Shown: one piece after another, positions 2,253 through 20,042 of the stretch | How positions within the stretch are numbered: position 1 is the first letter of the stretch | Layout: each line of letters starts with the position of its first letter | Assembly: GCF_000507245.1 (NCBI RefSeq) | Contig: NC_023035.1 | Location: 447,001 to 511,000 of the forward strand | From: Salinispira pacifica | GTDB lineage: Bacteria; Spirochaetota; Spirochaetia; DSM-27196; Salinispiraceae | DNA length: 64,000 nucleotides | Reading direction: 5' to 3' | Translations under genes and position numbers: made by a program | Notes under the pieces: model-generated | Told to the model about the DNA's origin: nothing | Seen by the model: the letters and a program-made list of their open reading frames with translations, nothing else | Databases searched by the model: none

Positions 2253-2638
2253 TCCTTTCTCAAAAGGAGATCGGCAGTCCCGTTGTGGATTATCCCAACA
2301 GTCTGATCGCCATGAACCGACCCAGCCTGCTTCAGTTTGTGGATAAGGTTCAGTCCGGCGGACTGATCATCGTGAATTCCTCGGTGGTGCAGGACAAGGT
2401 TGAGCGGGATGATCTGCGGGTAATTTACGTTCCGGCAACAGATATGGCCAAGGATGCGGGATTGATAAACGCCGCAAACATGATTGTGCTCACCCTCTAT
2501 CTGCTTGAAAAAGAGGTGGTTGATATAGAAACCCTGAAAGCTGTTGTACCCCTGAGTCTGAAAAAGAAGGAATATCTGGATATCAACCTCAGGCTGATAG
2601 AGAAGGCCGCTGAATATCACCGGGAATATAAAGACTGA
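2249..2638 (+). CDS. vorC: 2-oxoacid:ferredoxin oxidoreductase, gamma domain remainder (other side of the frameshift)
   Basis: This 129-residue frame continues the gamma domain that begins at the end of the preceding gene. Reading back across the G run in this frame gives [25 protein letters not shown], which is where the family should go. The apparent GTG start overlaps the upstream TGA, so a separate polypeptide is formally possible, but it would split a single globular domain. In the family the gamma subunit contacts CoA and stabilises the alpha-beta core. I treat it as part of one fused gene broken by a one-base shift. Confidence 0.8.
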
Positions 2639-2668
2639 TTCCAGCCGTCGGCAAAAGGAGAAAGCTGC

Positions 2669-3922
2669 ATGAGTTCTGCACCGTCTGTGGAACCGGACAC
2701 CAGACAGATAATACTGGTAATCAACCCCGGTTCCACCAGCACCAAGCTTGCCCTCTATGAAATGGAAGGCGTGAATCTGCGGGAGCTGGAAGAGCAAAGT
2801 ATCAGCCACCAGCCCGGGGAGATACAAAGTTTTACAGCCGTGGCCGATCAGGCCGATTTCCGGACCAGGGCTGCGGAGGAGTTTCTCTCCGCTTCCTGGA
2901 AACACCAGGGGCTGGAAAACGATGGCGCATTACAAGCGGTCATCGGCCGGGGAGGCCTGCTGGCCCCCCTGGCCGGAGGTGTCTACCGGGTGAGTTCCTA
3001 TATGCTCGGGGATCTCTCCTCGGGCGTATACGGCGAGCATGCAAGCAATCTGGGGGGGATCATTGCGCGAAAAATCGCAGATTCAGCTCCCGGACGCTAC
3101 AGCCCCGGGGACGGTGGGCCCGTGGAGGCATATATTGCCGATCCGGTGGTGGTGGATGAGCTGATGGATGAGGCGCGCCCCAGCGGACTGCCGGGGATGG
3201 ACCGTCGCAGCATTTTTCATGCACTGAACCAGAAAGCCTGCGCCCGGAAGATCGCCGGAAGGCTCAAACGGCGTTACGAGGACTGCAATTTCATCGTTGC
3301 GCATATGGGCGGAGGTATATCCGTGGGGGCTCACCGGCAGGGCCGGGTGGTTGATGTGAACAATGCCTTAGATGGAGATGGGCCCTTCTCCCCGGAACGC
3401 TGCGGAGGTCTGCCTGCCGGCCAGCTCATGGAAGAAGTGATCCGCAGCTATGCCGAAACCGGCGGAGTTCCGGCGATTCACGATCCGGTGCATCGGGAAT
3501 TAAAAAAGCGGCTGGTGGGCCGGGGAGGCCTGGTAGCCTACCTGGGGCACAGCGATCTCCGGAAAATCCAGGAGGAAAACTCCTCATCCGGCAAAGCCGG
3601 GAACCGGGAGTACTCCAGCGAACTGATTATCAATTCCATGATTCACCAGATTGCCAAAGAGGTGGCCCAGCATGGAGCAACCCTCCAGGGCGATGTGGAC
3701 GGAATTATCCTCACCGGCGGCCTTGCTCACAGCAGCCGCATTATCCGCGGACTGGAGGCGAAGCTTTCCTGGCTGGGGAAAATTTTCGTGATTCCCGGAG
3801 AGGGGGAAATGGAGGCTCTGGCGGAAAACGCCCGGGCAGCGCTCAGAGGGGATCGTGAGCTGAAGGAGTATGACCCAGATCAGCCCCGCCAGGATCAGAA
3901 GCACCGGCAGGAAGACCGGTAA
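2669..3922 (+). CDS. buk: Butyrate kinase / branched-chain fatty acid kinase
   Basis: This ASKHA-fold kinase makes ATP and a carboxylate from butyryl- or branched acyl-phosphate. The amino-terminal phosphate loop NPGSTSTKLALYE lies near residue 18, and AHMGGGISVGAHRQGRVVDVNN with DGDGPFSPERCGGLP lies in the middle. The ATP-binding segment DGIILTGGLAHSS lies near residue 345, all typical of butyrate kinases. At 417 residues it is longer than the usual ~355, with about 15 extra residues at the amino end and a charged carboxyl tail. The start has an AAAGGAGAAAGCTGC leader. Its neighbours are the oxidoreductase upstream and phosphate butyryltransferase downstream, which together form an acyl-CoA-to-ATP route. 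Chain length of the substrate is not readable. Confidence 0.92.
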   Translation: MSSAPSVEPDTRQIILVINPGSTSTKLALYEMEGVNLRELEEQSISHQPGEIQSFTAVADQADFRTRAAEEFLSASWKHQGLENDGALQAVIGRGGLLAPLAGGVYRVSSYMLGDLSSGVYGEHASNLGGIIARKIADSAPGRYSPGDGGPVEAYIADPVVVDELMDEARPSGLPGMDRRSIFHALNQKACARKIAGRLKRRYEDCNFIVAHMGGGISVGAHRQGRVVDVNNALDGDGPFSPERCGGLPAGQLMEEVIRSYAETGGVPAIHDPVHRELKKRLVGRGGLVAYLGHSDLRKIQEENSSSGKAGNREYSSELIINSMIHQIAKEVAQHGATLQGDVDGIILTGGLAHSSRIIRGLEAKLSWLGKIFVIPGEGEMEALAENARAALRGDRELKEYDPDQPRQDQKHRQEDR

Positions 3923-3941
3923 AAAACCAGTATTCAATGGA

Positions 3942-4074
3942 CAGTGCACCAAAGCTTGTGAAAAATATATGTTTCGAAAAAATCGACCGTACTGGTAGTG
4001 TCTGGTGTTTTTCAGGCACTACATATGTTGGTTTTTGTTGGAAAAAGTAGTGCTTCACAAGCTTCCGTGCACTG
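3942..4074. repeat. 133-bp element bounded by 21-bp inverted repeats, with an internal hairpin
   Basis: The arms at 3942-3962 and 4054-4074 are complementary at 19 of 21 positions, with outer sequence CAGTGCAC and inner AAGCTTGTGAA. Between them 3995-4004 pairs with 4013-4022 (GTAGTGTCTG with CAGGCACTAC, one G-T pair) around an eight-base T-rich loop. The stretch fills most of the gap between the kinase and the transferase. It has no open frame of note. It could be a small mobile-element remnant or a structured transcript segment, and I see no clear target-site duplication. Confidence 0.6.
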
Positions 4075-4103
4075 GCTAATCAATACGAAGGACGGAAGCG
4101 TAG

Positions 4104-5009
4104 ATGCGACTTGAAGAATTTTTTGTACCTCCGGTGAAACGCCGCGTTGCGGTACCCTTTCCCTATGAGCCGGCACTCCTGGAAACCACTTCAGCCGCAG
4201 CCGTGGAGGGTTGGGCGGAATTCCTGTTCATCGGTGAAACGGCGAAAATAGAAGAACTTGCCTCGGCGGCGGGAATGGATCCGGGCCATTACCGCTGCAT
4301 AGAATCCACCCGGGAGGATGAAGCCTGCTCCCTTGCCGCAGAAGCTCTCCGGGACGGTCTGGCGGATCTTGCCATGAAAGGTGCGGTGCATACGGCAAAT
4401 TTCAGCAGAGCGATTTTCTACAAGGAGTACGGACTGGTCGAGCCCGGCCGACTTGCCAGCCACATAGGCGCCTGCGAGCTGCCGGGATTCAAAAAAATTC
4501 TGTTTCTCACCGACTGTGCCATAAATATCAGCCCGGATTATGATGATAAACTGATTATTCTCAAAAATGCCCTGGAAACCCTCCGGGGACTGGGAGTGAA
4601 GGTTCCGAAAGTAGCTCTGGTTGCTCCGGTTGAAACGGTGAACCGGAAGATACCGGCAACCGTGGATGCTGACAGAATGGTGCAGGATTATAATGAGGGC
4701 CTTCTCACTGAAGAGCTGGGTCCAGCGGTGATCGAGGGTCCCTTCGGGCTGGATGTTGCCCTGTCCGCCGAGGCAGCCAGGACGAAGGGAATCGAAAGCA
4801 GGGTAGCCGGTGATGCGGATATTCTTCTTTTCCCGGATCTGAATACCGGGAATGCGGTGTATAAGGCTTTCACCTACGCCGCAGGGGGAACCATTGCCGG
4901 GAATCTCATCGGACCGCGGTCTCCGGTGGTGCTCACGTCCAGGGCGGATGATAACAGAACCAAGCTGCTCTCCCTGAAAATGGGGGTAAGCCTGATTCCC
5001 CCTGCCTGA
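4104..5009 (+). CDS. ptb: Phosphate butyryltransferase
   Basis: This 301-residue protein belongs to the phosphate acetyl/butyryltransferase family, which exchanges CoA for phosphate on a short acyl group. Recognisable segments are MKGAVHTANFSRAIF near residue 94, SHIGACELPGFKKILFLTDCAIN near 120, and the carboxyl-terminal GNLIGPRSPVVLTSRADD. Length and segment order fit Ptb rather than the longer Pta. GAAGGACGGAAGC precedes the ATG. It follows butyrate kinase, reversing the clostridial ptb-buk order, with an inverted-repeat element in between. It should convert the acyl-CoA made by the oxidoreductase to acyl-phosphate for the kinase. Confidence 0.92.
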   Translation: MRLEEFFVPPVKRRVAVPFPYEPALLETTSAAAVEGWAEFLFIGETAKIEELASAAGMDPGHYRCIESTREDEACSLAAEALRDGLADLAMKGAVHTANFSRAIFYKEYGLVEPGRLASHIGACELPGFKKILFLTDCAINISPDYDDKLIILKNALETLRGLGVKVPKVALVAPVETVNRKIPATVDADRMVQDYNEGLLTEELGPAVIEGPFGLDVALSAEAARTKGIESRVAGDADILLFPDLNTGNAVYKAFTYAAGGTIAGNLIGPRSPVVLTSRADDNRTKLLSLKMGVSLIPPA

Positions 5010-5148: not shown

Positions 5149-5182
5149 AGTAATTCCCGCCGAAGTTATGAGGAGACATGGA

Positions 5183-6322
5183 ATGGCCATAGAGGTGCGC
5201 CCCGTTGAGGGGAAAAAGGATTTTAAGAAATTTCTGAACTTCCCGTATAAGGTATACCGGGCGAAGACCGGTGAGCCCGGCGGACACTACGACGCCTGGG
5301 TCCCTCCTCTGGATATGGACATGAAGCACATGTTCGACCGGAAACACAACGGGCTTTTTGATCACGCAGAGCTGCAGGAGTACCTCGCCTACCGGAATGG
5401 AGCCGTTGCCGGAAGGATTGTGGCAATCGTGGATCATGCCTTCTGTGAATATCAGAATACCAAAACCGGCTTTGTGGGATTTTTTGAAGCCTATGATGAT
5501 GTGGATGTGGCCAAAGCATTGTTCAGCACGGCGGAAGACTGGGTGCGCAGCAAGGGAATGGCCCGGGTTATCGGCCCGATTAACGGGTCCACCAATTATC
5601 AGCTGGGCAATCAGATAGACAGTTTCGACACCCTGCCGGTGATCGAGATGCCCTATTCTCCGCCCTATTACGGAAAACTGTATGAAGCCGCGGGCTACGC
5701 AAAAGACCAGGATCTGTATTCCTACAAAATGAAAACCACCCTCAAGCTCAGCGATAAAATCACCAGGGTGGCTGAGCTTGCCCGTAAGCGCAGCAAGGTG
5801 GAAATCAGAACGGTTGAAATGAAGAATTGGGACCGGGATGTGAATTATGTACGGGAAATCTGGGACGATGCCTGGCGGGACAATTGGGGATACGTACCCT
5901 GGAACAAGTCGGAGTTTGATCAACTGGCCGACGGACTGAAAATGGCCATCGACCCCAAGATCACCCTTTTTGCGTATGTTGACGGCAAGCCGGTTGGGTT
6001 TGCATTTCCCATTCCCGATCTGAATCCCGTGTTCCACGGCATGAACGGGAAGCTTCTGCCCTTCGGAATTTTCAAGCTTCTGGCAGGAAAAAAGAAGGCG
6101 GACAGTATCCGCATTGCCGCTTTCGGCGTGCGAAAAGAGTACCAGAATAAAGGAATTGATGCCCTTTTTGTGTATGAACTGTACACCAGAGGAGTAAAGC
6201 AGGGGGTGCGGGGGGCAGAATTCAGCTGGATTCTGGAATCCAATCTCCATCTCCGGAATCTTCTGGAAAACTGGGGTGCGGAGCATTACCGGACCCACCG
6301 GGTATACGGCAAAGAATTGTAA
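5183..6322 (+). CDS. GNAT-family acyltransferase, bacterial ceramide synthase (bCerS/YghO)-like
   Basis: The 379-residue protein has the layout of the YghO/bCerS group of GNAT proteins: an amino-terminal half with WVPPLDMDMK, GRIVAIVDHAF, GFFEAYDDV and GPINGSTNYQLG, and a carboxyl-terminal GNAT fold with FGVRKEYQNKGIDALF near residues 314-329. Proteins of this group N-acylate sphingoid bases in bacteria such as Caulobacter, an acyl-CoA-dependent step. I chose the ATG at 5183, which has GAGGAG seven bases before it, over the ATG at 5168. It is the first gene of an operon that also holds an alpha-oxoamine synthase and carrier protein, which supports N-acylation of a long-chain amine. The exact substrate is unknown, and members of this family without sphingolipid roles exist. 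Confidence 0.6.
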   Translation: MAIEVRPVEGKKDFKKFLNFPYKVYRAKTGEPGGHYDAWVPPLDMDMKHMFDRKHNGLFDHAELQEYLAYRNGAVAGRIVAIVDHAFCEYQNTKTGFVGFFEAYDDVDVAKALFSTAEDWVRSKGMARVIGPINGSTNYQLGNQIDSFDTLPVIEMPYSPPYYGKLYEAAGYAKDQDLYSYKMKTTLKLSDKITRVAELARKRSKVEIRTVEMKNWDRDVNYVREIWDDAWRDNWGYVPWNKSEFDQLADGLKMAIDPKITLFAYVDGKPVGFAFPIPDLNPVFHGMNGKLLPFGIFKLLAGKKKADSIRIAAFGVRKEYQNKGIDALFVYELYTRGVKQGVRGAEFSWILESNLHLRNLLENWGAEHYRTHRVYGKEL

Positions 6323-6408: not shown

Positions 6409-7362
6409 ATGAGTACGGTTTTTCTATTCCCCGGCCAGGGAGCTCAGTATCCGGGTATGGCGCGGGATCTATATGAAGGAAGCGATGAAGTTAAAAATCT
6501 TTTTTCCACCGCCTCAGGGGTGCTGAATAAAGATATGGCCGGGCTTCTTTTCGACGGAAGCGAAGAGGACTTGAAGTCCACTGACAACACCCAGGCGGCG
6601 GTGACCCTTGCAAATATTTCCGCTTCGGCGGTTCTCAAGGAAAAGGGCGTTACTCCCGCAGCGGTAATGGGATTTTCCGTAGGTGAGTATGCAGCCCTTC
6701 ATGAAGCTGGAGTGCTGGATACCGAAACCCTGTTCCGCGTGGTTCAGATCCGCGGCGAGGTGATGGAAAAAGGAGCCCGAAAGGCCGACACTGCAGCCGG
6801 CCCCAGCGCAATGAGCGCCGTTCTTGGCCTGCCCTTCGAGGAAGCCCGTGATGTGGTATCTCCCATGGCCGGGCAGGGGGTGTTCATCGCCAACCACAGC
6901 TCTCCCACCCAGATTGTGATTGCAGGAACTTCCCAGGGACTGGATGCCGCAGAGGCCGCGCTGAACGATGCCGGTGCCATGAAGGTTGTACGCCTGAAAG
7001 TCAGCGGCCCGTTTCATTCCCCTCTGCTGGAAGATGCCAGGACAGAATTCGAGGAGCGGATCGGGGAGTTCACCTTTCATGATCCCCGGCTGCCCCTGAT
7101 TTCCAATGTAAGCGCCACGCCAATCGAAAACGGAGAACAGGCCAGGAAACGGGCCGGTGAGCAGATTGTGTCCATGGTTCGATGGGTGGATTCAGAACAA
7201 TATCTGCTGGATAAGGGCTTTATTACCGGCGGGGAGCATGATCTGGTAATTGAAGCGGGGCCGGGAAAAGTGCTTTGTGGACTTTGGAAATCTTTTTACA
7301 AGGGACTGAGGGGAAAACCCGCAGGAACCCTCGAGGCGATAGAGAAAATTCTCCAGGGCTGA
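6409..7362 (+). CDS. Discrete malonyl-CoA:ACP transacylase (FabD/trans-AT type)
   Basis: The 317-residue protein begins with FLFPGQGAQYPGMA and carries the nucleophile motif GFSVGEYAA with Ser90. Arg115 (VVQIRGEVM) and His203 (SGPFHSPLL) complete the usual acyltransferase set. The nucleophile elbow reads GFSVG where malonyl transferases usually have GHSLG, which may affect acyl selection. It loads malonyl groups from CoA onto the acyl carrier protein for the neighbouring ketosynthase. The ATG has a weak AAGGATGGTTTCTC leader, and a strong hairpin lies just upstream. Whether it is the housekeeping FabD or cluster-dedicated cannot be told from this window. Its operon position favours dedication. 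Confidence 0.85.
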   Translation: MSTVFLFPGQGAQYPGMARDLYEGSDEVKNLFSTASGVLNKDMAGLLFDGSEEDLKSTDNTQAAVTLANISASAVLKEKGVTPAAVMGFSVGEYAALHEAGVLDTETLFRVVQIRGEVMEKGARKADTAAGPSAMSAVLGLPFEEARDVVSPMAGQGVFIANHSSPTQIVIAGTSQGLDAAEAALNDAGAMKVVRLKVSGPFHSPLLEDARTEFEERIGEFTFHDPRLPLISNVSATPIENGEQARKRAGEQIVSMVRWVDSEQYLLDKGFITGGEHDLVIEAGPGKVLCGLWKSFYKGLRGKPAGTLEAIEKILQG

Positions 7363-7410
7363 TTTTCGGGGGATGAACCCCCGGGCCCGTCCTTAATGCA
7401 AGGAGCATAT

Positions 7411-8700
7411 ATGAACAAACAGCGCATAGTGATCACCGGGATGGCAACAATTAATCCCCTGGGTGACACCGTTGAAGAGTATTATCAGAACCTTCTGGCC
7501 GGTAAATCCGGTGTGAAGAAATGGGAGTCCCTGGATCTGGCCAAATGTGAGAACAGAGTGGGCGGGGATCTGGGCGATTACGATACCAAGGCGGCTCTGG
7601 AGCGGCTGAAAGAGGGAATCGGCGAGGCGAAGTTCAAGAAGCTTCGCAAACTGTTCCGCTCTGCAACCTTTTCCTCCAAAACCGCAGTGCTCACATCCCA
7701 GAATGCCTGGCTTGATGCCGGACTGGAAGGGGTTGAAATTGACCCCTACATAACCATGGTGGTGGTTGCAGGGCATAACCTGAACTCAAAGTATATCAAC
7801 CGATTGAGCAAACAGTATGAGGAAGAGCCCGAGTACATGGATCCCCTCAGTTCGGTGGAAGCCATCGATAATAACGTTCCCGCCCTCATCTCCGAGGTCC
7901 TTAAAGTTCACGGCCCCAGCTACACGGTGGGTGGAGCCTGTGCAAGCGGCAATCTGGCATTGCGGGATGCAGTACGGGATATCAGATCAGGCGAAGTTGA
8001 ACGGGCGGTTGTGACCGGAGCCCTCTTCGATGTTGCGGAGCCGGACATTCAGGCTTCGGTGATCATCAACTCGGTGGTAATGGACAAGGAGTTGAACGAG
8101 CATCCGGAAACGGCCTGCCGTCCTTTCGATACCCGGCGCAACGGTTTTGTGTACAGCCACGGCTCAGCCGCTTTGGTGGTGGAGAGTCTGGAATCCGCCC
8201 TGGCGCGGGGTGCACACATCCACGCCGAGGTGCTTTCGGTGCGGGCGAACGCCAATGCGAACCACCTTCCCATGCCCGGCGCCCAGCACCAGGCATGGGT
8301 CATGCGGAAGGTACTGGAAGATGCGGGGGTGAAGCCCGGGCAGGTTGAGTACGCGAACTGCCATGCCACGGGTACGCCCGCCGGAGATAAGCAGGAGATA
8401 TACGCACTCAGGGAAGTATTCGGCGATCACCTGAAGGAAATGAAAATCAACGCCCCCAAATCCATGCTGGGCCACACCTGTTGGGCAAGCCCTCTTGTTG
8501 AGACCATCGGAGGAATCATGCAGATGAACAATTCCCGGCTTCATCCCACCATCAACGTGGATGCACAGGATCCGGAAATTGAAGCTGATGTGTGCGCCGA
8601 CGGACCAGTGGATTGGGAAGTAAATTATATGCTGAAAAACTCCTTCGGCTTCGGCGGACTCAACTGCTGCAGCCTCATCAAGAAGTGGGAGGGAGCATGA
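7411..8700 (+). CDS. Beta-ketoacyl-ACP synthase of the beta-branching operon (KS1)
   Basis: This 429-residue thiolase-fold enzyme keeps the condensing triad: Cys177 in GGACASGN, His318 in NCHATGTP and His355 in KSMLGHTCW with Lys350. It is divergent from ordinary FabF, with a long insertion around residues 125-150 and a carboxyl-terminal FGFGGLNCCSLI. In known beta-branching cassettes a companion ketosynthase has Cys replaced by Ser and only decarboxylates malonyl-ACP. Here the Cys is present, so it may condense, or decarboxylate by another arrangement. I chose the ATG at 7411, with AAGGAGCATAT before it, over the ATG at 7396. Its stop overlaps the next start (ATGA). Confidence 0.82.
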   Translation: MNKQRIVITGMATINPLGDTVEEYYQNLLAGKSGVKKWESLDLAKCENRVGGDLGDYDTKAALERLKEGIGEAKFKKLRKLFRSATFSSKTAVLTSQNAWLDAGLEGVEIDPYITMVVVAGHNLNSKYINRLSKQYEEEPEYMDPLSSVEAIDNNVPALISEVLKVHGPSYTVGGACASGNLALRDAVRDIRSGEVERAVVTGALFDVAEPDIQASVIINSVVMDKELNEHPETACRPFDTRRNGFVYSHGSAALVVESLESALARGAHIHAEVLSVRANANANHLPMPGAQHQAWVMRKVLEDAGVKPGQVEYANCHATGTPAGDKQEIYALREVFGDHLKEMKINAPKSMLGHTCWASPLVETIGGIMQMNNSRLHPTINVDAQDPEIEADVCADGPVDWEVNYMLKNSFGFGGLNCCSLIKKWEGA

Positions 8701-9440
8701 GTAACGCCTTTGTAACCGGAGGATCCCGGGGGATCGGCAGAAGCATTGTGCTCCGCTATGTAAGCGAAGGCTGGGGGGTGGCGTTCACCTACTCATCCAA
8801 CAAGGAAGCGGCGGACCGGACCCTGGAAATGGCCCGGGAGATACGCCCGGATGCACGAGTCCAGGCGTATCAGCTCAACCTGTCTGATGAAGATGCCATC
8901 GATAAGGTGTGCGAACAGGCCATAGATGATTTTGAAAACATCACTGCGGTGGTGAACAATGCTGCCATACTCAAAGATAACGCTGCGGCGCTGATGAGCA
9001 ACGAAGAGTGGAAAGATGTGGTGTCGGTGAATCTCACCGCTCCCTTCCTGGTATCCAGAAACTTCCTGCTTCACTTTCTCAGCAACCGCAAGGGAAGACT
9101 GATCCATGTTTCCAGCCTTGCCGCCTACGGATCCAGCGGGCAGGTGAATTACGCCGCATCCAAGGCCGGTCTCCAGGGAATGAGTCTCACGATAGCCAAG
9201 GAGTACGGAAAGAAGGGAATTACATCCAACATTGTGACGGTGGGTTACGTCCCCACAGCCATGACGGAAGAAAACATGAACAAGCAGCTTCAGGAATACT
9301 GGTTAAAACACTGTCCCGCCCGCAGGGTGGGAACCCCCGAAGAGATCGCTTCGGCGGTGTATTATCTCAGTTCAGATGAAGCCTCTTTTATAAGCGGAGA
9401 AGATCTCCGTATATCCGCAGGGCTTACCTACGCCCCCTAG
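8697..9440 (+). CDS. 3-oxoacyl-ACP reductase (FabG-like SDR)
   Basis: The protein has 247 residues. The short-chain dehydrogenase signature is complete: GGSRGIGRS at the amino end binds NAD(P), NNAAILKDN is the NNAG-type motif, and Ser with YAASKAG gives the YxxxK catalytic pair. It should reduce a beta-keto group on the carrier protein, either during chain growth or on a 3-keto sphingoid-like product. The start at 8697 overlaps the ketosynthase stop by four bases with GGAGGGAGC before it, which implies coupled translation. NADPH preference is assumed from the family. Confidence 0.85.
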   Translation: MSNAFVTGGSRGIGRSIVLRYVSEGWGVAFTYSSNKEAADRTLEMAREIRPDARVQAYQLNLSDEDAIDKVCEQAIDDFENITAVVNNAAILKDNAAALMSNEEWKDVVSVNLTAPFLVSRNFLLHFLSNRKGRLIHVSSLAAYGSSGQVNYAASKAGLQGMSLTIAKEYGKKGITSNIVTVGYVPTAMTEENMNKQLQEYWLKHCPARRVGTPEEIASAVYYLSSDEASFISGEDLRISAGLTYAP

Positions 9441-9471
9441 TCGGAAAATTACCCAATCCGGGAGGAATTAT

Positions 9472-10698
9472 ATGAAACGAGTAGGAATTGAAAAACTCAA
9501 CGTGTACGGAACATCAATGTATCTTGACCAGGCCGATCTGGCGAAGGCCCGGGGCAAGGATCCCGAGCAGATCAAAAAAGACTATCTGATCGAAACCAGA
9601 AGTCTGAACCCCACCTGGGAAGATGCGGTAACCATGGCGGCCAATGCGGCCATGACCATGCTCAGCGAAGAAGATAAGAAAGATATCGGTATGCTGATAG
9701 TGGGTACCGAGGGTTCGGTGGATTTCGGAAAGCCAATCTCCACCAACGTCCACTCCGCACTGGGACTGGGGCCCAATGTCCGGAACTATGAGACCAAGTT
9801 CGCATGTTACAGCGGGGTCGCCGCCCTGGATACTGCGGTAAACTGGGTGGCCTCAGGGCTGAACAAGGGGAAAAAGGCGCTGGTTATTGCCTCGGACTTC
9901 TCCCGTCAGCATCTCGGCAAACTTGAGGAGTTTGTCCTCGGAGGATGCGCCGCCGCAGCCCTGGTTTCCGATGATCCGAAAATCATCGAGTACGATCTGG
10001 AAAGGAAGGGAACCTGGACCACCGACATTTACGACACCTTCCGTCCGTCAGCCCTGGCTGAAGTGGGCAATAATGAAGTAAGCCTTTTCTCCTACATGGA
10101 TGCGGTGCAGGGTTCCTATGAGCACTATAAGGAGCAGGTTGAAGGTGATGTGGATTTTGATAATGACTTCTCCTACTTTGTGTACCACACACCCTTCCCC
10201 GGAATTGCATTCCAGGCACACCGGACTCTCACACGAGAGAACGCCCCCAAAAAGAAACCCGAGCTCCGGGCGGACTTTGAAAACCGGGTAATCCCCGCTC
10301 TGGCATACAGCCGCAGGGTGGGTTCAACCTACGGAACATCCAACCTTACCGGGCTGGCCGCACTGGTGAACCATGCCGACGATGCGGAAGGCAAGCATAT
10401 TGCTCTCTTTGCCTACGGTTCCGGCGCCATCGGCGAGTTCTACTCGGGAACCATTCTCCCCGGTGCAAAGGCTGAAATGGCCAAAATGAAAATCGACGAG
10501 CGCCTTGATGAGCGCCGCCGCTGCAGCGTGGAAGAGTATGAGGCCATCGAAAAACTCCGTGAAACCTATGTTGAAAACTCTGATTTTGTGCCGGATTACA
10601 GCATTCTCGACGGCTGGTATGAAAAGCACTACAAGGGAAGCGGTCTGCTGGTGCTGAAAGAAGTGAAAGACTGGTACAGAACCTACGAAAGGGCCTAG
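9472..10698 (+). CDS. HMG-CoA-synthase-like enzyme of a beta-branching (HCS) cassette
   Basis: This 408-residue protein is a 3-hydroxy-3-methylglutaryl synthase homologue. The catalytic residues are visible as Glu80 (GTEGSVDFGKP), Cys112 (FACYSGVAAL) and His239 (YHTPFPGIAFQAH). In polyketide pathways such proteins (PksG, TaC) add acetyl-ACP to the beta-keto group of an acyl-ACP. The two following hydratase-family genes then dehydrate and decarboxylate the product to leave a methyl branch. GGGAGGAATTAT precedes the ATG. A mevalonate-pathway MvaS is the alternative, but no other mevalonate gene is nearby and the adjoining ECH1/ECH2 pair is diagnostic of HCS cassettes. Confidence 0.85.
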   Translation: MKRVGIEKLNVYGTSMYLDQADLAKARGKDPEQIKKDYLIETRSLNPTWEDAVTMAANAAMTMLSEEDKKDIGMLIVGTEGSVDFGKPISTNVHSALGLGPNVRNYETKFACYSGVAALDTAVNWVASGLNKGKKALVIASDFSRQHLGKLEEFVLGGCAAAALVSDDPKIIEYDLERKGTWTTDIYDTFRPSALAEVGNNEVSLFSYMDAVQGSYEHYKEQVEGDVDFDNDFSYFVYHTPFPGIAFQAHRTLTRENAPKKKPELRADFENRVIPALAYSRRVGSTYGTSNLTGLAALVNHADDAEGKHIALFAYGSGAIGEFYSGTILPGAKAEMAKMKIDERLDERRRCSVEEYEAIEKLRETYVENSDFVPDYSILDGWYEKHYKGSGLLVLKEVKDWYRTYERA

Positions 10699-10707
10699 GC
10701 GGTTTCC

Positions 10708-11592
10708 ATGAGTACGAATGGCGGTGATGCGGTTTCAGCCCGGGAGGAATCCCAGGCCTCTGCAGTAACATATTCAAACGACTCGGGCCTGGGCATTATT
10801 CACATATCCGACGGACGGGGAAACCGGCTCAATCCTTCAAGTCTGGAAGAGCTTTCCCGGGCATTTCAGGAAGGTCTGGCAGACGAGGATGCAAAACTGC
10901 TGATGATCCGCTCAGGGGAACGGAGTTTCTGTCTGGGAATGGATCTGGAAGGTCTTGAATCCAGTCTTGATGATGACGGTTCCGGAGGAAATTCCGGCGG
11001 CGATCATCGAAGCGGCGGAGTGAAACGCTACTCCAGCCTCCTGTACAGTATTGCCGGCTGCGCAAAGCCGGTAATCGCCCTTGTTGAAGGGGATGTGAAA
11101 GCCGGCGGGGTGGGCCTTGCGGCCGCATGCGACATTGTGATTGCCCGGGAGGACGCCAGCTTTGAACTCTCGGAAGTGCTCTTCGGCCTCGTACCCTATA
11201 ATGTGCTGCCCTATGTGTTTTCCCTGAGAATGAGCCCCCAGCGCTTCCGTTATATGGTGCTCAGCGCAGCCCGGGTGGATGCCCGGGAAGCCCGAGACTT
11301 CGGCCTGGTGGACAGGGTGTTTTCCGAAGACGCCCTGGAAAAGGGGTTGAAAAGCATGTTGAAAACCATGATGCGGGCCGAGCCCCGGGCTCTGGCTGCC
11401 GCAAAGACCTTCTTCACCCGTGCCCTGGACCAGGATTTCGATACCTTGCGGGGTAATGCCGAACAGGCGCTGCTGAAACACATGGCCCAGCCCCAGGTGA
11501 AGGAAGGGCTGGAAGCGTTTCATTCAGGAGATATGCCGGAGTGGTTTTCCAGATTCAAACCCGGAAAAAAGCTTTCCGGCCAAAACGGTTGA
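10708..11592 (+). CDS. Enoyl-CoA hydratase-family dehydratase ECH1 (PksH-like)
   Basis: This 294-residue crotonase-fold protein matches the ECH1 type of beta-branching cassettes. The segment PVIALVEGDVKAGGVGLAAACDIVIA, with SFELSEVLFGLVPYNVLPY after it, closely follows the PksH pattern. ECH1 enzymes dehydrate the HMG-ACP-type intermediate to a 3-methylglutaconyl-ACP. An unusual glycine- and serine-rich stretch near residues 85-105 (DDDGSGGNSGGDHRSGG) interrupts the loop after GMDLEGL, which I take as a surface insertion. It begins nine bases after the synthase stop with only a weak binding site (GGCGGTTTCC), suggesting coupling to the upstream gene. Confidence 0.82.
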   Translation: MSTNGGDAVSAREESQASAVTYSNDSGLGIIHISDGRGNRLNPSSLEELSRAFQEGLADEDAKLLMIRSGERSFCLGMDLEGLESSLDDDGSGGNSGGDHRSGGVKRYSSLLYSIAGCAKPVIALVEGDVKAGGVGLAAACDIVIAREDASFELSEVLFGLVPYNVLPYVFSLRMSPQRFRYMVLSAARVDAREARDFGLVDRVFSEDALEKGLKSMLKTMMRAEPRALAAAKTFFTRALDQDFDTLRGNAEQALLKHMAQPQVKEGLEAFHSGDMPEWFSRFKPGKKLSGQNG

Positions 11593-11622
11593 ACCTCCGG
11601 GTTCGACACAGACGAGGAACAT

Positions 11623-12450
11623 ATGTCAGAAGAAAAATTACACCCCAAGCAGGTTGAACCTTCCCGGCACGGGGAGGATGCGGATCCCGCATCTCTTTTT
11701 GAACAGTACGGGAGAGTTTCGTTTTCCCTGGATGAAAAGGAAATAGCCACCATCTTCATGCATGATATGGAGGGACAAAATGTATTCTCCCATGCGTTTG
11801 TTGAGGACTTTCTCAGCGTACTGGATGCGGTTGAAGAGATTGATCCCCGGGTTGTTATTCTCAGAGGACTTACAAGCACTTTCTCCGGTGGGGCCGATAA
11901 GGAATCTCTCATGGAGCTGGCCAGCGGAAAAATTGTAGTCCGGGATCTCGTAATCTCCGAAAGACTTATCAACTGCCGCTTCCCGGTTATCTCCGCAATG
12001 GAAGGACATGCCATGGGCGGGGGATTTGTAATAGCCCTCTGCTCGGATATTATCATTGCCTCCCGGGAGGCCAGGTACGGCACGGTCTTTATGAATATGG
12101 GGTTTACGCCGGGAATGGGAACCACCACCCTTCTGCAGGGTGCCGTGGGAAGCTATATTGCCAACGAAATGATGTTCACCGGCAGGCGATACAAGGGCCG
12201 TGAACTGGCGGAAAAGTCCACAAATATCAACTACATTCTCCCGAAAAAAGAGGTTCTGGCAAAGGCCGCAGATCTTGCCCTGCAGATTGCGGAGAAGAAT
12301 CCCAAGTCTGTACAGCTGTTGAAGTACAGTCTTGCCGCACCCAAGAAAAAACTTCTCACCGATGCCCGGCTGCAGGAGGATATGATGCATGCCCTCAGCT
12401 TCGGGTATCCGGAGACGAAAAAAATTATTGATGATCTCTACGCAGGATGA
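11623..12450 (+). CDS. Enoyl-CoA hydratase-family decarboxylase ECH2 (PksI-like)
   Basis: The 275-residue protein is a crotonase-fold enzyme of the ECH2 type. AMEGHAMGGGFVIALCSD supplies the oxyanion-hole region and FMNMGFTPGMGTTTLL matches the PksI/CurF signature. ECH2 decarboxylates 3-methylglutaconyl-ACP to a 3-methylcrotonyl-type product, completing the methyl branch. It lies 30 bases after ECH1, in the order synthase, ECH1, ECH2 that is standard for HCS cassettes. A GACGAGGAACAT leader precedes the ATG. The first 25 residues are charged and look disordered. Regiochemistry of the remaining double bond (alpha-beta or beta-gamma) cannot be inferred. Confidence 0.83.
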   Translation: MSEEKLHPKQVEPSRHGEDADPASLFEQYGRVSFSLDEKEIATIFMHDMEGQNVFSHAFVEDFLSVLDAVEEIDPRVVILRGLTSTFSGGADKESLMELASGKIVVRDLVISERLINCRFPVISAMEGHAMGGGFVIALCSDIIIASREARYGTVFMNMGFTPGMGTTTLLQGAVGSYIANEMMFTGRRYKGRELAEKSTNINYILPKKEVLAKAADLALQIAEKNPKSVQLLKYSLAAPKKKLLTDARLQEDMMHALSFGYPETKKIIDDLYAG

Positions 12451-12497
12451 TCAGGGATTATCAGCTTCGGTAAACACGGAAAAGGAAGGAAACAGCT

Positions 12498-13319
12498 ATG
12501 ATCAGCATTGATATGACAGGAAAAACCGTACTGATTACCGGCGGTACCAAAGGAATCGGCCTGGCCTCGGCACTGAATTTTGCCCAGGCGGGAGCTCAGA
12601 CTGTACTCACCTATAAGTGGGGAAGTGCGGACATGGATGAACTGAAAAAACAGTTTTCCGATCTTGGTGCACCCGAGCCCCTGCTTGTGCAGGCGGATGT
12701 TTCGGTGGATGAAGATACCGATGCCCTTCTCGACGAAGTGGCTAAGATATCCAAATCGGTTGATATCTTTATCAGCAATGTGGGATATGCTGCGACAATG
12801 CGAAATCTCGATGCGTATAAGAAGAGATCGCTCTATAAGACTCTGGACTATTCAACCTGGCCTATGGTTGAATATACCCGGAAAATACAGAAAAAATTCG
12901 GTTCCTACCCTGAAAAGGTGATCGGGATCAGCAGCGACGGTCCGGATCATTTTTATCCGGGATACGATTATGTGGCAGCGAGTAAGGCATTGCTTGAATT
13001 TTTCGGAAAGTACATGGCCGCCCATCTCTACAAAGAGGGCAGCCGGGTGAATGTTATCCGCTTCGGGCAGGTAAAAACCGAGAGCTTTACCGCCATTTTC
13101 GGCGAAGAGTTTTTCGATTACCTTCGCGATCAGGGACTGGCCAGCGAAGAGCAGATCCTGACCCCCGAGGAATGCGGAAAAGCAGTGTTCGCTCTTTGCA
13201 GCGGATTAATGGATGGAATGAACGGACAGGTTGTAAATGTTGACTACGGCCTGCCATTCACAGATAATACGATGATGCGTTTCCTTTCATGGAAAGAGAA
13301 ACAGGATCAATCATCTTAA
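12498..13319 (+). CDS. FabL-like enoyl-ACP reductase (SDR with Y-x6-K)
   Basis: The 273-residue protein starts with the cofactor motif GGTKGIGLASA. It lacks the classical YxxxK of ketoreductases. Instead Tyr156 and Lys163 in GYDYVAASKALLEFFGKY stand in the Y-x6-K spacing of enoyl-ACP reductases, and the segment aligns well with Bacillus FabL. It would saturate the enoyl product, either in ordinary chain extension or after the beta-branch decarboxylation, as seen in some HCS pathways. GGAAAAGGAAGGAAACAGCT precedes the ATG. A 3-ketosphinganine-type reductase is an alternative that the Y-x6-K spacing argues against. Confidence 0.72.
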   Translation: MISIDMTGKTVLITGGTKGIGLASALNFAQAGAQTVLTYKWGSADMDELKKQFSDLGAPEPLLVQADVSVDEDTDALLDEVAKISKSVDIFISNVGYAATMRNLDAYKKRSLYKTLDYSTWPMVEYTRKIQKKFGSYPEKVIGISSDGPDHFYPGYDYVAASKALLEFFGKYMAAHLYKEGSRVNVIRFGQVKTESFTAIFGEEFFDYLRDQGLASEEQILTPEECGKAVFALCSGLMDGMNGQVVNVDYGLPFTDNTMMRFLSWKEKQDQSS

Positions 13320-13332
13320 GAGGAGAGACATC

Positions 13333-13578
13333 ATGACTAAACCTGAAGTCATCGAAGTCATCAAAAAGAATATCGTGGATAATCTTGATGATATTGAACT
13401 GGATGAGATCGACGCATCCAAATCCATGAAGGATTATGGTGCAAACAGCCTGGATATTATCGAGGTTGTGAGCTGTTCCATGCGGGACCTTGATATCAAG
13501 ATTCCCCGTTCCGAACTTGCTGACATCGGAGATATTGACGGTCTTGCGGACAAATTTCTGGAGCATGTCGAAGAATAA
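13333..13578 (+). CDS. Acyl carrier protein
   Basis: This 81-residue acidic protein carries the phosphopantetheine site in YGANSLDIIEVV with Ser39. The GANS form, and the later IPRSEL, resemble carrier proteins of beta-branching cassettes (AcpK type) more than housekeeping AcpP, which usually has GADSLD. It is the only carrier protein in the cluster, so it may act both as chain carrier and as acetyl donor. It might also be partner of the alpha-oxoamine synthase, as ACPs beside serine palmitoyltransferase are elsewhere. AAGAGGAGAGACATC gives a strong start, 13 bases after the reductase. Confidence 0.92.
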   Translation: MTKPEVIEVIKKNIVDNLDDIELDEIDASKSMKDYGANSLDIIEVVSCSMRDLDIKIPRSELADIGDIDGLADKFLEHVEE

Positions 13579-13638
13579 TCAGGCGTCCGATTTCCCCGGA
13601 GACGGGATGGTTTCATCCTGTCCCGGGTTTCTCATCTC

Positions 13639-13667
13639 TTGACCCGCGTATAGTCCCGGCGTACAAC
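13639..13667 (+). promoter_or_regulatory. Possible internal promoter before the oxoamine synthase
   Basis: TTGACC (13639-13644) and TACAAC (13662-13667) are 17 bases apart within the 126-base gap after the carrier protein gene. An imperfect hairpin (CGGGA with TCCCG, about 13604-13625) precedes it. The oxoamine synthase starts 38 bases after the -10 box. This could let the last two genes be expressed separately. Confidence 0.35.
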
Positions 13668-13704
13668 ACCGGCGGCTAAGAAATTTAATATACAGGAAAA
13701 ACTT

Positions 13705-14958
13705 ATGGCGAAAGCAACAGATTTCAGCCTCGCTGATTTTCATTATACCAATAATCCCGATGTCCTCTCTCCTCCCGAAGATTTTGAAGAATGGATTAAC
13801 GATCCGGAAGTACAACAGGCATTCAGCTTCACCGGCCAGAGCCTGCTCATGGCACCCAAAGCCAACACGGAAATTCTGAGCAATCTTGACGGCAAACGCC
13901 GGAAGATTATTAACATGACCAGCTACAATTATCTGGGGCTTTCAACACACCCGGAAGTACTGGCTGCAGCGAAAGAGGCGGCGGATAAATACGGCCTCAG
14001 TTCCTCAGGAGCCCCCCTGGTTTCCGGAACCCTGGATCTGCACCTGGAATTTGCTGAAAAACTGGCAAAACTGAAACATAAAGAAGCAGCCCTGATCTTC
14101 AGCTCCGGATACGGCGGAAATGTGGGTGCCCTGCAGGGAATGATGCGGAAGGGCGATGTACTGATTTTTGATGAGAAGATTCATAAATCCCTCATCGACG
14201 GCGGGACTCTTTCCCATGCCAAAATGGAATTCTTTGACCACAACGACATGAACAGTCTTGAGCAGAAGCTTGAAAAACATAAAGACAAGCGGAAGCTCAT
14301 CGTTGCAGAAGGCGTCTACTCCATGGATGGCGATATGGCCAAACTTCCGGAAATGGTGCCCCTTTCCGAGGCCTACAATGCGCCTATCTATCTGGATGAA
14401 GCCCATTCAACCCTGATGTTCGGCGAAAAGGGCGGCGGAGTGGGTGAACACTTCGGTCTTGAAGACAAAATCGGCATGTCCTACGGTACCTTGAGCAAGA
14501 GCTTCGGCGGTGTGGGTGGCTTCATTGCGTCCAACGAGCGGATTATCCGCTATCTGAAAGGCTATGCTTCCAGCTGGAACTTTTCCTGTGCCCCCAGTCC
14601 TCCGGTGATTGCCGGGCTGATCAAGGCACTGGAAGTTGCAACCCGGGATTCCACTCTTCGGGATCAGCTCTGGGCAAACACCCGTTATCTGAAAGAAAAT
14701 ATTCAGGCACTTGGGCTGGATATCGGTGACTGTGAAAGTCAGGTAATACCGGTGATCATCGGTCAGAGCGGTGAAAAACTCTTCCATTTCGCCGGTGAAA
14801 TGCAGAAACGGGGACTCTTTCTCCAACCCATCGACTATCCTGCGGTTCCCGCACATGCCCGCCGTTTCAGAATCTCTGTATCCTCCCAGTTCACCAGGGA
14901 AGACATGGATACTGCGCTGAATATTATGGAAGATGTAATTGTGAAAGGGATGAAATAA
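13705..14958 (+). CDS. Alpha-oxoamine synthase (serine palmitoyltransferase family)
   Basis: This 417-residue PLP enzyme belongs to the family of serine palmitoyltransferase, KBL, BioF and ALAS. Lys265 in YGTLSKSFGGVGGF is the PLP lysine, Asp231 and His234 lie in DEAHS, and His160 stacks on the cofactor. It joins an acyl thioester to an amino acid with loss of CO2, giving an amino ketone. The His160 region reads DEKIHKSLIDG instead of the usual HAS, a possible mark of a different substrate. With a carrier protein just upstream and a bCerS-like protein in the operon, a sphingolipid-like product is likely. The amino acid (serine, cysteate, alanine or glycine) is not readable. Confidence 0.85.
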   Translation: MAKATDFSLADFHYTNNPDVLSPPEDFEEWINDPEVQQAFSFTGQSLLMAPKANTEILSNLDGKRRKIINMTSYNYLGLSTHPEVLAAAKEAADKYGLSSSGAPLVSGTLDLHLEFAEKLAKLKHKEAALIFSSGYGGNVGALQGMMRKGDVLIFDEKIHKSLIDGGTLSHAKMEFFDHNDMNSLEQKLEKHKDKRKLIVAEGVYSMDGDMAKLPEMVPLSEAYNAPIYLDEAHSTLMFGEKGGGVGEHFGLEDKIGMSYGTLSKSFGGVGGFIASNERIIRYLKGYASSWNFSCAPSPPVIAGLIKALEVATRDSTLRDQLWANTRYLKENIQALGLDIGDCESQVIPVIIGQSGEKLFHFAGEMQKRGLFLQPIDYPAVPAHARRFRISVSSQFTREDMDTALNIMEDVIVKGMK

Positions 14959-14960
14959 GC

Positions 14961-15488
14961 GTGAGCGAACAGGAAACCCTGCTGAAAAAGCACAGGAAAA
15001 AGCCTCTGTTCGATATAGCCTCCCTGCCCGTGAGCCTGAGTTACGGCAGGGAGGATATCAAGAAAATCATCCCCCACAGAGAGCCCATGCTCTTTGTGGA
15101 CCGACTTCTGGGGCTTGACCGGGAGCAGGGGCTGATGTACGGCCAGCGCTACATGGATCCTGACGATCCGGTGTTTCAGGGGCATTTTCCCGATGCTCCC
15201 ATGTATCCGGGGAATTTCACCATTGAAATGATCGGTCAGCTGGGTTTGTGCATGTATTATTTTGAAGAACAGGGGCGCAGCGATATTGCCGAACAGGCAA
15301 CTCCGGTACCCGCACGGGCCACCCGCATTGCCGGAGCCCATTACCTGAAACCCGTGGAACCCGGTAAAACCGTAACCCTGCTGGCAAAAAAGCTTGAGTA
15401 CGACGGCTTTTTTGCATCCATGATCGGCCAGGCTCTGGTGGATGGTGAAGTTGCGGTAACGGTGATCGGGGAAGTGGTTATTCTGTAG
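14961..15488 (+). CDS. FabZ/FabA-like 3-hydroxyacyl-ACP dehydratase
   Basis: The 175-residue hot-dog-fold protein has IPHREPMLFVDRLL near residue 37, His75 in GHFPDAPMYPGNF and Glu89 in TIEMIGQ, the catalytic pair of FabZ. It would dehydrate 3-hydroxyacyl-ACP, completing a full reductive cycle with the ketosynthase, ketoreductase and enoyl reductase of the same operon. It starts with GTG two bases after the oxoamine synthase stop. An extra ~25-residue amino-terminal stretch precedes the usual FabZ start. It is the last gene of the operon, and the next genes face it. Confidence 0.85.
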   Translation: MSEQETLLKKHRKKPLFDIASLPVSLSYGREDIKKIIPHREPMLFVDRLLGLDREQGLMYGQRYMDPDDPVFQGHFPDAPMYPGNFTIEMIGQLGLCMYYFEEQGRSDIAEQATPVPARATRIAGAHYLKPVEPGKTVTLLAKKLEYDGFFASMIGQALVDGEVAVTVIGEVVIL

Positions 15489-17160: not shown

Positions 17161-18408
17161 TTATGAATAGCGGCTGAATACCACGCAGGCGTTCTGTCCG
17201 CCGAACCCGAAGGCGTTGGACAGAAAATGGTCTGCCTTTTTCTCCATTGGCTCTTTTATCACATTATAGTTTATTTCGTCGTCAAGTTCGAATTGATTGA
17301 TGGTGTGGTGGATTACTCCCTGCTCGAAGGATAAAATACCAGCAACCGCTTCTACGGCACTGGCTGCCCCGATGAGGTGGCCGGTCATGCTTTTGGTGCT
17401 GTTGACGGGGATGCTCGAGGCAAGGTCCGCTCCCATGGCACGGTTCACCGCCTGGCATTCGGCCTTGTCCCCGATGGGGGTGGAAGTTCCATGACAGTTG
17501 ATGAAATCAAGCTGCTCGTAGTTCAGCTCCGCCATCTCCACCGCGAGTTCGATGGCCTTGGATGCGCCGATTCCGTCGGGGTGGGGCGCAACCAGATCGT
17601 AGGCGTCGGAGGTGAAGCCGAAGCCGCTGATTTCCGCATAGATATGAGCGCCGCGTTTTTTCGCATGTTCAAGTTCTTCCAGAAACAGAACTCCTGCACC
17701 CTCGCCCATTACAAATCCGTCCCGGCTTTTGTCGAAGGGCCGTGAGGCAGTTTCCGGATCATCATTCCTGGAGGAGAGTGCTCCGATCTGACCGAACCCC
17801 GCCATTGAGGGCTCTGTAGCCACCGCTTCGGTTCCGCCGGTTACCATTGCATCCACCATACCTGTGGCAATCATATTGTATGCCGTTCCCAGTGCATGAT
17901 TGGAACTGGCGCAGGCCGAGTTTACCGAAAAGCTGGGACCGGTGAAGCCGAATTCCATGCTGATCATGGCGCTGGTGGAATTGGGAATTACCGAAGATAC
18001 ATAGAACGGGCTGACTGAGGATAAGCCGCTTTTGGCCATCCGGTTGATCTGCTGATACTGGGTGATAAGTCCCCCGTCACCTGTGCCAACCAGAACCCCC
18101 ACCCGATGGGGTTCCTGATAATTATCCATTCCGGCATCTTTAATCGCCTGGTAACCTGCTATATGACCGAGAATAATATGCCTGTCCAGTCGGCGGGCCA
18201 TTTTCCTCTGGGTAAAATAATCCCTCACATCAGGCAGATCGATTTCCGCCGCAATCTGAACATGGAAATCGCTCAGATCCATATTTTGAGCCTTTCGGGC
18301 TCCGCTTTTACCCTTTACCAGATTCTCCCAGAACTGGGAAACATTGAAACCTATGGGATTCACCGTACCGAGACCGGTAATAACCACTCTACGTTGTTTT
18401 GCTGCCAC
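17161..18408 (-). CDS. Beta-ketoacyl-ACP synthase, FabF type (KS2)
   Basis: The 415-residue protein is a regular FabF-type condensing enzyme. Cys166 (NSACASSN), His306 (NCHGTSTP) and His344 (TKSMTGHLIGAAS) with Lys339 form the triad, and FGFGGQNACVVF closes the chain. It elongates acyl-ACP with malonyl-ACP. I chose the GTG at 18408 with GGGAGG five bases upstream, over an ATG seven codons earlier that would lie before that site. It heads a minus-strand group with a membrane protein and a kinase-like gene and is divergent from the phosphopantetheinyl transferase. It probably supplies elongation for the same acyl line as KS1. Confidence 0.87.
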   Translation of the reverse strand: MAAKQRRVVITGLGTVNPIGFNVSQFWENLVKGKSGARKAQNMDLSDFHVQIAAEIDLPDVRDYFTQRKMARRLDRHIILGHIAGYQAIKDAGMDNYQEPHRVGVLVGTGDGGLITQYQQINRMAKSGLSSVSPFYVSSVIPNSTSAMISMEFGFTGPSFSVNSACASSNHALGTAYNMIATGMVDAMVTGGTEAVATEPSMAGFGQIGALSSRNDDPETASRPFDKSRDGFVMGEGAGVLFLEELEHAKKRGAHIYAEISGFGFTSDAYDLVAPHPDGIGASKAIELAVEMAELNYEQLDFINCHGTSTPIGDKAECQAVNRAMGADLASSIPVNSTKSMTGHLIGAASAVEAVAGILSFEQGVIHHTINQFELDDEINYNVIKEPMEKKADHFLSNAFGFGGQNACVVFSRYS

Positions 18409-18456
18409 ACATCCTCCCTGGGGATCCATTATACTTTGTTACATCCATCGATCCCG

Positions 18457-18502: not shown

Positions 18503-19189
18503 ATGTTTCAAAGACCAATTGCACAGCTCCTTGTCTATTATTTTCACCGCTACAAAGCATACGCTTCAGACCCTGGCGTCCAGGGGGAACAGACCCCCGG
18601 CAGAATTTGTCTTCGTCTGGCGTTGAACAATGCCTTTTCCCGTTTGGCTCTGCCCCCCCTGGATAATTCCGATACATTTGTCACTGCAGAAGGCGGAAAA
18701 CCGTATCTGCTGCGTTCAGGAGAGGATAAGTTCTTCGGGTTTAACATGAGTGTTTCCGGAGATCACCTGGCCGTGGGGGTAACTGATTACGGCTCCATCG
18801 GTGTGGATATTGAGGCGCGATCAATACCGAGGAAAAAGACCAGTCTTGAAGCCGTAATGATCTACTACTTTCAGGATGATGAGAGATTGTTTGTGCTGGA
18901 TGCTTCGCAAGACGAAGAGGAATTTCTCTGGAGATTTCTCCGGATCTGGACAAGGAAGGAAGCGGCGGTAAAATGTCAGGGAAAAAGCATCGGCAGTCAC
19001 GGGATGCTGGTGAACGGAATGGAGGACTATTGGATCGATGAGGAATCGGGCACATCGGTGGCGATACAGGATGTGTCTTTTCCCGGCGCCCCCCGCCTTC
19101 AGGCCTCTGTGGCTCTGCAATCAGGGGCTCTGCAATCAGGGGGATCACCCCGTCCGATGATTATCGACGGGGATGATCTGAGGCTGTGA
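18503..19189 (+). CDS. 4'-phosphopantetheinyl transferase (Sfp/AcpT type)
   Basis: The 228-residue protein shows the Sfp-family pattern: FNMSVSGDHLAVGV, then GSIGVDIEA, which binds magnesium and CoA, and FLRIWTRKEAAVKCQGKSI about 55 residues later. It transfers the phosphopantetheine arm of CoA to the serine of carrier proteins, so it can activate the cluster's ACP. It is divergent from KS2 across a 94-base region with a shared dyad. Its 3' end contains an in-frame 15-base tandem duplication giving ALQSG twice. The ATG has no strong binding site. A housekeeping AcpS would be shorter, so this looks like a pathway enzyme. Confidence 0.85.
   Translation: MFQRPIAQLLVYYFHRYKAYASDPGVQGEQTPGRICLRLALNNAFSRLALPPLDNSDTFVTAEGGKPYLLRSGEDKFFGFNMSVSGDHLAVGVTDYGSIGVDIEARSIPRKKTSLEAVMIYYFQDDERLFVLDASQDEEEFLWRFLRIWTRKEAAVKCQGKSIGSHGMLVNGMEDYWIDEESGTSVAIQDVSFPGAPRLQASVALQSGALQSGGSPRPMIIDGDDLRL
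19111..19140 (+). repeat. Two-copy 15-bp tandem duplication inside the PPTase gene
   Basis: GGCTCTGCAATCAGG occurs twice in perfect tandem at 19111-19125 and 19126-19140. It is in frame and encodes ALQSG-ALQSG near the carboxyl end, outside the conserved core. It looks like a recent slippage event. Confidence 0.8.
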
Positions 19190-19957: not shown

Positions 19958-20042
19958 GGAAAATCCTCCTTTTCCATACTCTATGACTCTTCCCATTTCG
20001 AGGCAAGGTATTTCAGCCCATTTCCCGTGAATTGGAAATGAA

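Follow-up and report, generated by a model that had tools for sequence, protein, structure and literature searches.

Gene content of the block and its cassette enzymes

The gene block described here lies in a window of 64,000 nucleotides from Salinispira pacifica (bases 447001-511000 of a chromosome that is complete as one contig of 3,782,798 bp), and joins HMGS, ECH1 and ECH2, the three enzymes of a polyketide beta-branching cassette, to the stand-alone proteins of a type II synthase and to an alpha-oxoamine synthase (AOS). The open reading frames (ORFs) for the three cassette enzymes are intact and co-directional at positions 9472-12450 of the window, the extent given for the cassette in an earlier note on this DNA; the three genes are borne out, but they form only the middle of a larger unit. 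The block runs in the order ketosynthase 1 (KS1), FabG, HMGS, ECH1, ECH2, enoyl reductase, acyl carrier protein (ACP), AOS and dehydratase (7396-15488). Together with a FabD-type gene the co-directional unit spans ~6409-15488, a YghO-like gene located upstream on the same strand opens the operon, and a second ketosynthase gene (KS2) and a gene for an Sfp-type phosphopantetheinyl transferase (PPTase) lie near the block (Table 1). Stand-alone ketosynthase (KS), acyltransferase, ketoreductase, dehydratase, enoyl reductase, ACP and PPTase are all encoded at the locus, so that the type II set for fatty acid or polyketide synthesis is complete. The earlier note had missed two of these components, the AOS linked to the cassette and the KS with a retained active-site Cys.

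The assignments of all three cassette enzymes are upheld by Pfam, NCBIfam and PDB searches. The HMGS residues that had been named beforehand (Glu80, Cys112 and His239) are exactly in place, the motifs EGDVKAGGVG and FMNMGFTPGMG are present in ECH1 and ECH2, respectively, and the gene order, described as standard, is indeed that of the PksF-I/CurB-F type cassettes. The best PDB matches of HMGS are CurD (264 bits) and PksG (238 bits), with other HMG-CoA synthase chains at 212 bits or less; the one exception, an 'HMG-CoA synthase-like protein' (8s81, 230 bits), may belong to the same type. Against the MvaS equivalog model the protein scores 270 and does not reach the cut-off of 360. ECH2 passes the cut-off of the polyketide model PRK07110 (254 against 215), and its best PDB matches, PksI (142 bits) and CurF (133 bits), are followed by a next match of 78 bits. 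The matches of ECH1 are less specific, being those of a crotonase with 4nnq as the best PDB match (90 bits) and PksH lower (68 bits). Catalysis requires Asp68 and Glu137 in PksH and His230 in PksI (PMC7501309). The equivalent Glu of ECH1 does not vary among the spirochaete and Serratia proteins discussed below and the Asp is kept except for an Asn at two spirochaete loci (L036 and L037), while the ECH2 His, equivalent to PksI His230 and CurF His240, is invariant in the same set.

Phylogenetic trees, which the earlier note had suggested as a check, bear out the placement of two of the three enzymes. The HMGS tree separates MvaS proteins from the ACP-type HMGSs, which form one group (support 100/98) with two sides. 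The first side comprises CurD, PksG and eight cassette HMGSs of plasmid records, and the second (98/96) unites the HMGSs of the spirochaete block with those of a Serratia plasmid block and of three divergent loci in spirochaetes; no modular synthase was found in the stretches read around the members of the second side. The spirochaete ECH2 enzymes branch beside the PksI/CurF group. The ECH1 tree gave no resolution, and the ECH1 assignment rests on residues and context. A role of the block HMGS as MvaS in isoprenoid synthesis was rejected on the basis of the tree, the model cut-off and the existence of a separate mvaS locus: the genome's own MvaS is encoded at 3.187 Mb, adjoining a mevalonate-kinase-like ORF.

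The largest ORF of the window (891 aa) has no domains of a polyketide synthase (PKS), in agreement with the earlier claim that the window holds no multi-domain synthase. A modular synthase near the operon would have spoken against that note's reading; it was sought over the whole genome and none was found, as each of the four KS genes of the chromosome stands alone in an open frame of 425-451 codons, and only two ACPs are encoded, one of them inside the block. A modular synthase elsewhere in the genome is ruled out by this KS and ACP search. From these gene inventories we strongly infer that the cassette acts on a free carrier protein. The proposal of a methyl-branching device for a type II system is likewise supported by the free ACP and by the stand-alone KS, acyltransferase, ketoreductase, dehydratase and enoyl reductase of the operon.

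Table 1. Features of the block and of nearby genes, with positions in the window
Feature	Position	Strand	Evidence
YghO/CerS-like N-acyltransferase (GNAT fold), candidate for ceramide-type N-acylation	5168..6322	+	33% to E. coli BL21 YghO over full length, E 9e-71; Pfam Acetyltransf_1; synteny
FabD-type malonyl-ACP transacylase	6409..7362	+	TIGR00128 245 bits (cut-off 261, not reached); PF00698
KS1, ketosynthase in the clade of beta-branching cassettes, with active-site Cys (GGACASGN)	7396..8700	+	best NCBIfam PRK07103; tree; alignment
FabG-type ketoreductase (YX3K)	8697..9440	+	Pfam; motif alignment; ATGA overlap (4 bases) with KS1
HMGS, HMG-ACP-synthase-like (E80, C112, H239)	9472..10698	+	residues; profile and PDB matches; tree
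ECH1, HMG dehydratase (FCLGMD, LSE)	10708..11592	+	Pfam; PDB matches; catalytic Asp/Glu kept
ECH2, methylglutaconyl decarboxylase (catalytic His, MMH)	11623..12450	+	PRK07110 above cut-off; PksI/CurF best; His invariant; tree
Short-chain dehydrogenase/reductase (SDR), invariant Y-x6-K, enoyl-reductase type (FabL/FabI-like)	12498..13319	+	best NCBIfam FabL 95 bits, below cut-off; motif
Dedicated ACP (GANSLD), no Trp flag	13333..13578	+	PF00550; alignment
AOS, nearest serine palmitoyltransferase (SPT)	13705..14958	+	best PDB match 8guh/3a2b 273 bits; alignment; 31% to E. coli Spt
FabZ-type dehydratase (GHFPDAPMYPG)	14961..15488	+	PF07977; TIGR01750 80 bits, below cut-off
KS2, FabF-type ketosynthase, near block in most relatives	17161..18429	-	Pfam; synteny; tree
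Sfp-type PPTase, putative ACP activator	18503..19189	+	PF01648; PPTase-like gene also near KS2 in L036, L044, L045

Just upstream of the block, window positions 154-5009 hold genes for the alpha and beta subunits of a 2-oxoacid:ferredoxin oxidoreductase together with acetate/butyrate-kinase-like and phosphobutyryltransferase-like genes. These are a possible source of branched acyl-CoA, and they are not kept beside the block in relatives.

A lineage apart from the modular cassettes

The block shares its HMGS-ECH1-ECH2 residues and order with the HMGS (HCS) beta-branching cassettes of trans-AT and some cis-AT PKSs (PksF-I/AcpK, CurB-F, BonF-I/BonN), and in both a cassette-type KS and an ACP adjoin. 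It differs from them in having no modular synthase, a KS that keeps its Cys, an ACP without the Trp, and genes for ketoreductase, enoyl reductase, dehydratase and AOS in the same operon; its HMGS and its KS each lie in a sister clade of their own. HMGS, ECH1 and ECH2 are thus, taken singly, members of the beta-branching families, whereas the complete system falls outside the canonical cassettes, because two of their defining features were looked for and neither was found: a KS of the non-elongating type and a modular synthase that the cassette would serve. Its proposed action on a free carrier protein would resemble that of such a cassette.

One of these differences concerns KS1. The KS tree places KS1 and the Serratia KS as the sister group of the decarboxylating KSs of PKS-associated cassettes (100/100), with FabF and KS2 outside; the Serratia rows form long branches in the trees, and their exact placement is unsure. 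The active-site Cys is present in KS1, in its near-full-length relatives and in the Serratia KS, all of which also keep both catalytic His residues, and is replaced by Ser or Met in six PKS-associated KSs. A canonical cassette with a non-elongating decarboxylating KS was rejected on account of the Cys of KS1. Since FabF has the Cys too, a loss on the polyketide side would be the simpler reading of this pattern. Both the HMGS and the KS1 trees describe a lineage separate from the cassettes of modular PKSs.

The Y-x6-K pattern of enoyl reductases is kept by the SDR in the spirochaete and Serratia blocks, and FabG has Y-x3-K. In alignments the block ACP is 42% identical to a Photobacterium cassette ACP and 28% identical to the genome's own AcpP. 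A Trp flag has been described for the acceptor ACPs of modular systems (PMC12560621); the Trp is not present in the aligned block ACP, which therefore lacks the acceptor-ACP flag. A separate observation concerns an unannotated 1.7-Mb replicon, a plasmid of Photobacterium sp. GJ3 (L058), which carries a cassette with a donor-type ACP and a KS (Cys to Ser) within a large modular PKS cluster, and whose KS is the second-best plasmid match to KS1.

Conservation in spirochaetes and on a Serratia plasmid

Among 393 spirochaete genomes, HMGS orthologues with 59-76% identity are found in twelve genomes besides S. pacifica, one of them as a fragment only. The order KS1-FabG-HMGS-ECH1-ECH2-SDR-ACP-AOS-dehydratase is kept wherever the contig is long enough, usually with KS2 nearby, and is common to several spirochaete families inside and outside the class of Salinispira. 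The departures from compactness are found at L046 (genome G008), with other genes between HMGS and ECH1, and at L045, with two short ORFs between ECH1 and ECH2. The FabD and YghO-like genes belong to the block only in the own family of S. pacifica (G000, G252 and G360), and the flanking genes otherwise vary among relatives, which marks the block as a unit.

The AOS gene is tied to this unit. AOS orthologues (identity at least 64%) and HMGS orthologues each occur in 13 genomes, 12 of which are shared, and in the two mismatches (G021 and G124) the contig breaks off within the block. The Fisher test of co-occurrence (7e-21) ignores shared ancestry, and therefore shows linkage rather than independent gains. 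At three divergent spirochaete loci (L047, L048 and L049) a FabG-HMGS pair with 41-45% identity to the window HMGS was observed, accompanied in L048 by ECH1, ECH2 and ACP; no KS lies near any of the three, which may represent a possible reduced form of the pathway.

Beyond the spirochaetes, where the search covered plasmid records, a related block is carried by the mobilizable plasmid pSF001 of Serratia fonticola GS2 (CP013914.1), which leads the plasmid matches of the SDR by a wide margin (169 bits, the next being 85). It consists of dehydratase, KS, FabG, HMGS, ECH1, ECH2 and SDR genes with a divergent ACP and FabD, and thus resembles the spirochaete block in all of these components, including the Cys of its KS. 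Neither an AOS nor a modular synthase was found in the stretches of pSF001 read. It is unlike the spirochaete block in the missing AOS, in its flanks of transposases and oxidase fragments, and in its frameshifts: the start and the end of CP013914.1 (L060 and L066) both hold the block, with the frame of KS broken in one copy and that of HMGS in the other.

Oxoamine synthase, predicted product and rival explanations

The best PDB matches of the AOS are SPT (273 bits), KBL (217 bits) and the cysteate enzyme (209 bits). The protein keeps the pyridoxal phosphate Lys and the stacking His of alpha-oxoamine synthases in the alignment, and constitutes a subfamily of its own with 37% identity to the SPT 3a2b, 31% to E. 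coli Spt and 29-32% to KBL. A KBL/BioF identity was rejected in view of these values and of a separate KBL in the genome. In proteobacteria, spt follows acpR in the operon and SPT prefers a dedicated acyl-ACP (PMC9386255). The AOS gene of the block likewise comes immediately after the ACP gene; E. coli BL21, a carrier of this type of ceramide pathway, was used for comparison. The block thus shares with the AasR-AcpR-Spt-CerR-CerS pathway of Caulobacter and E. coli B an SPT-like enzyme after a dedicated ACP gene and a YghO/CerS homologue. Unlike that pathway, where AasR loads the acyl chain, the block seems to have a dedicated synthase that produces the chain and includes a branching step; the identity of AOS to E. 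coli Spt is also low, and the ACP is not clearly AcpR. Another point of comparison is the leucine-independent isovaleryl-CoA pathway of myxobacteria, where an HMG-type condensation, dehydration, decarboxylation and reduction likewise yield a methyl-branched acyl unit, although at the CoA level and with different dehydratase and decarboxylase proteins.

Proceeding from the gene content and order, the intact catalytic residues, the co-occurrence and the tree positions, we consider it fairly probable that the block encodes a dedicated type II, ACP-linked synthase whose acyl chain receives a beta-methyl branch and is then passed to the SPT-like enzyme, giving a branched sphingoid-type aminolipid. 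In this scheme KS1 and KS2 would build a beta-ketoacyl-ACP out of malonyl units. In one round the beta-ketone would be left unreduced and HMGS would add an acetyl unit; dehydration by ECH1, decarboxylation by ECH2 and saturation by the YX6K reductase would then create the beta-methyl branch, with FabG, the FabZ-like dehydratase and the reductase acting in the remaining rounds. The SPT-like AOS would condense the branched acyl-ACP with an amino acid, serine being the default guess, to a branched 3-keto long-chain base, which the YghO-like acyltransferase of Salinispira and its nearest relatives may N-acylate to a ceramide-type aminolipid. S. pacifica is reported to contain a major aminolipid that was left unidentified and some 2-hydroxy C16:0 (PMC4511686). 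In addition, a gene of the Asp/Arg beta-hydroxylase family (PF05118, LpxO-like) is located near the block at window positions 19202-19996.

Several observations weigh against this proposal. What the enzymes catalyse, which molecule donates the acetyl unit, where the branch lies, which amino acid is used and that the product is a lipid are all inferred, and the supply of the acetyl donor is hard to place because KS1 keeps its Cys and the block has a single ACP. AOS reaches no equivalog cut-off, that of SPT included (NF047600: 336 against 640), and no convincing CerR or AasR was detected in the S. pacifica genome, where only weak generic epimerase and adenylation-domain matches were obtained. 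A sphingolipid is not reported in the genome paper according to a word search (PMC4511686). YghO-like proteins are spread widely (99 of the 393 genomes) and so are not by themselves a sign of ceramides; their presence in 13 of 14 block-bearing genomes is suggestive only, since 86 of the 379 genomes lacking the block also have one. A full ceramide pathway by homology was rejected, as the genome yields the Spt-like and YghO-like parts only. In favour of the proposal, a CerR-like epimerase is encoded beside the block in L036 of G252 (29%, 6e-33; L036:18642-19628), directly after the PPTase gene. A second subfamily of SPT-like oxoamine synthases, with 41-44% identity to the window AOS, is found outside any fatty-acid cluster in L086 and L087 (G003 and G039).

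The main rival within the type II frame is that the cassette acts only once, on acetoacetyl-ACP, which would be converted to 3-methylcrotonyl-ACP and by the reductase to isovaleryl-ACP, priming an iso chain whose branch is terminal and not internal, a route akin to the myxobacterial isovaleryl-CoA pathway mentioned above. This would suit the position of the enoyl reductase gene directly after ECH2 and the occurrence of iso-C15:0 as a major fatty acid, more abundant than in relatives (PMC4511686), and a single ACP would be enough. The anteiso-C15:0 that is also present (PMC4511686) could not be made by this route, however, and the upstream oxidoreductase pair with the phosphobutyryltransferase-like gene could yield branched acyl-CoA from amino acids, so that we regard such a starter role as unlikely, if worth serious attention. 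Much the same holds for a small diffusible natural product, e.g. an aminoketone or a pyrrole precursor, in place of a membrane lipid, which we doubt to a similar degree. Enzymes of the AOS type serve small-molecule pathways too, the Serratia block has no AOS and resides on a plasmid among transposases, and outside the family of S. pacifica no lipid-modifying gene is kept beside the block; yet the AOS is nearest to SPT, a YghO homologue is part of the operon, and no exporter or tailoring gene is kept beside the block.

The two other explanations depart from the type II frame altogether. HMG-CoA synthase and crotonase folds are common to the polyketide cassettes and to CoA-level pathways of the mevalonate or leucine-degradation type, but the grouping of HMGS with CurD and PksG apart from MvaS, the mvaS gene elsewhere in the genome and the ACP, KS and AOS genes tied to the cassette make a mere resemblance very improbable. 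That the cassette serves a modular PKS elsewhere, as the well-described cassettes do (PMC12560621), or is a decaying relic of one, has a negligible probability in our estimation: it is refuted at the genome level by a complete sequence with only four stand-alone KSs and two ACPs, and the catalytic residues are intact in an order kept over deep divergence.

Beyond the proposed synthase and its sphingoid-type product, a more far-reaching view may be put forward only tentatively. The spirochaete and Serratia blocks could be a free-standing lineage that is ancestral to the PKS cassettes or stands beside them, in which the KS still elongates and whose Cys was later lost to give a decarboxylase, with spirochaetes making new beta-methyl-branched sphingoid-type lipids through the SPT-like enzyme.

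Searches of the open-access literature turned up no beta-branching cassette described for a type II system or for spirochaetes, and the novelty is to be taken as provisional. Known beta-branching is the work of HMGS cassettes on megasynthase-bound chains. A small operon that branches chains on a free ACP would, if true, be much easier to engineer and to study structurally, and would show the cassette at work before, or apart from, modular synthases, with the KS Cys still there. If the chain goes to the SPT-like enzyme, the block would constitute an undescribed spirochaete route to methyl-branched sphingoid lipids, and the unidentified major aminolipid of S. pacifica makes this lipid reading directly testable.

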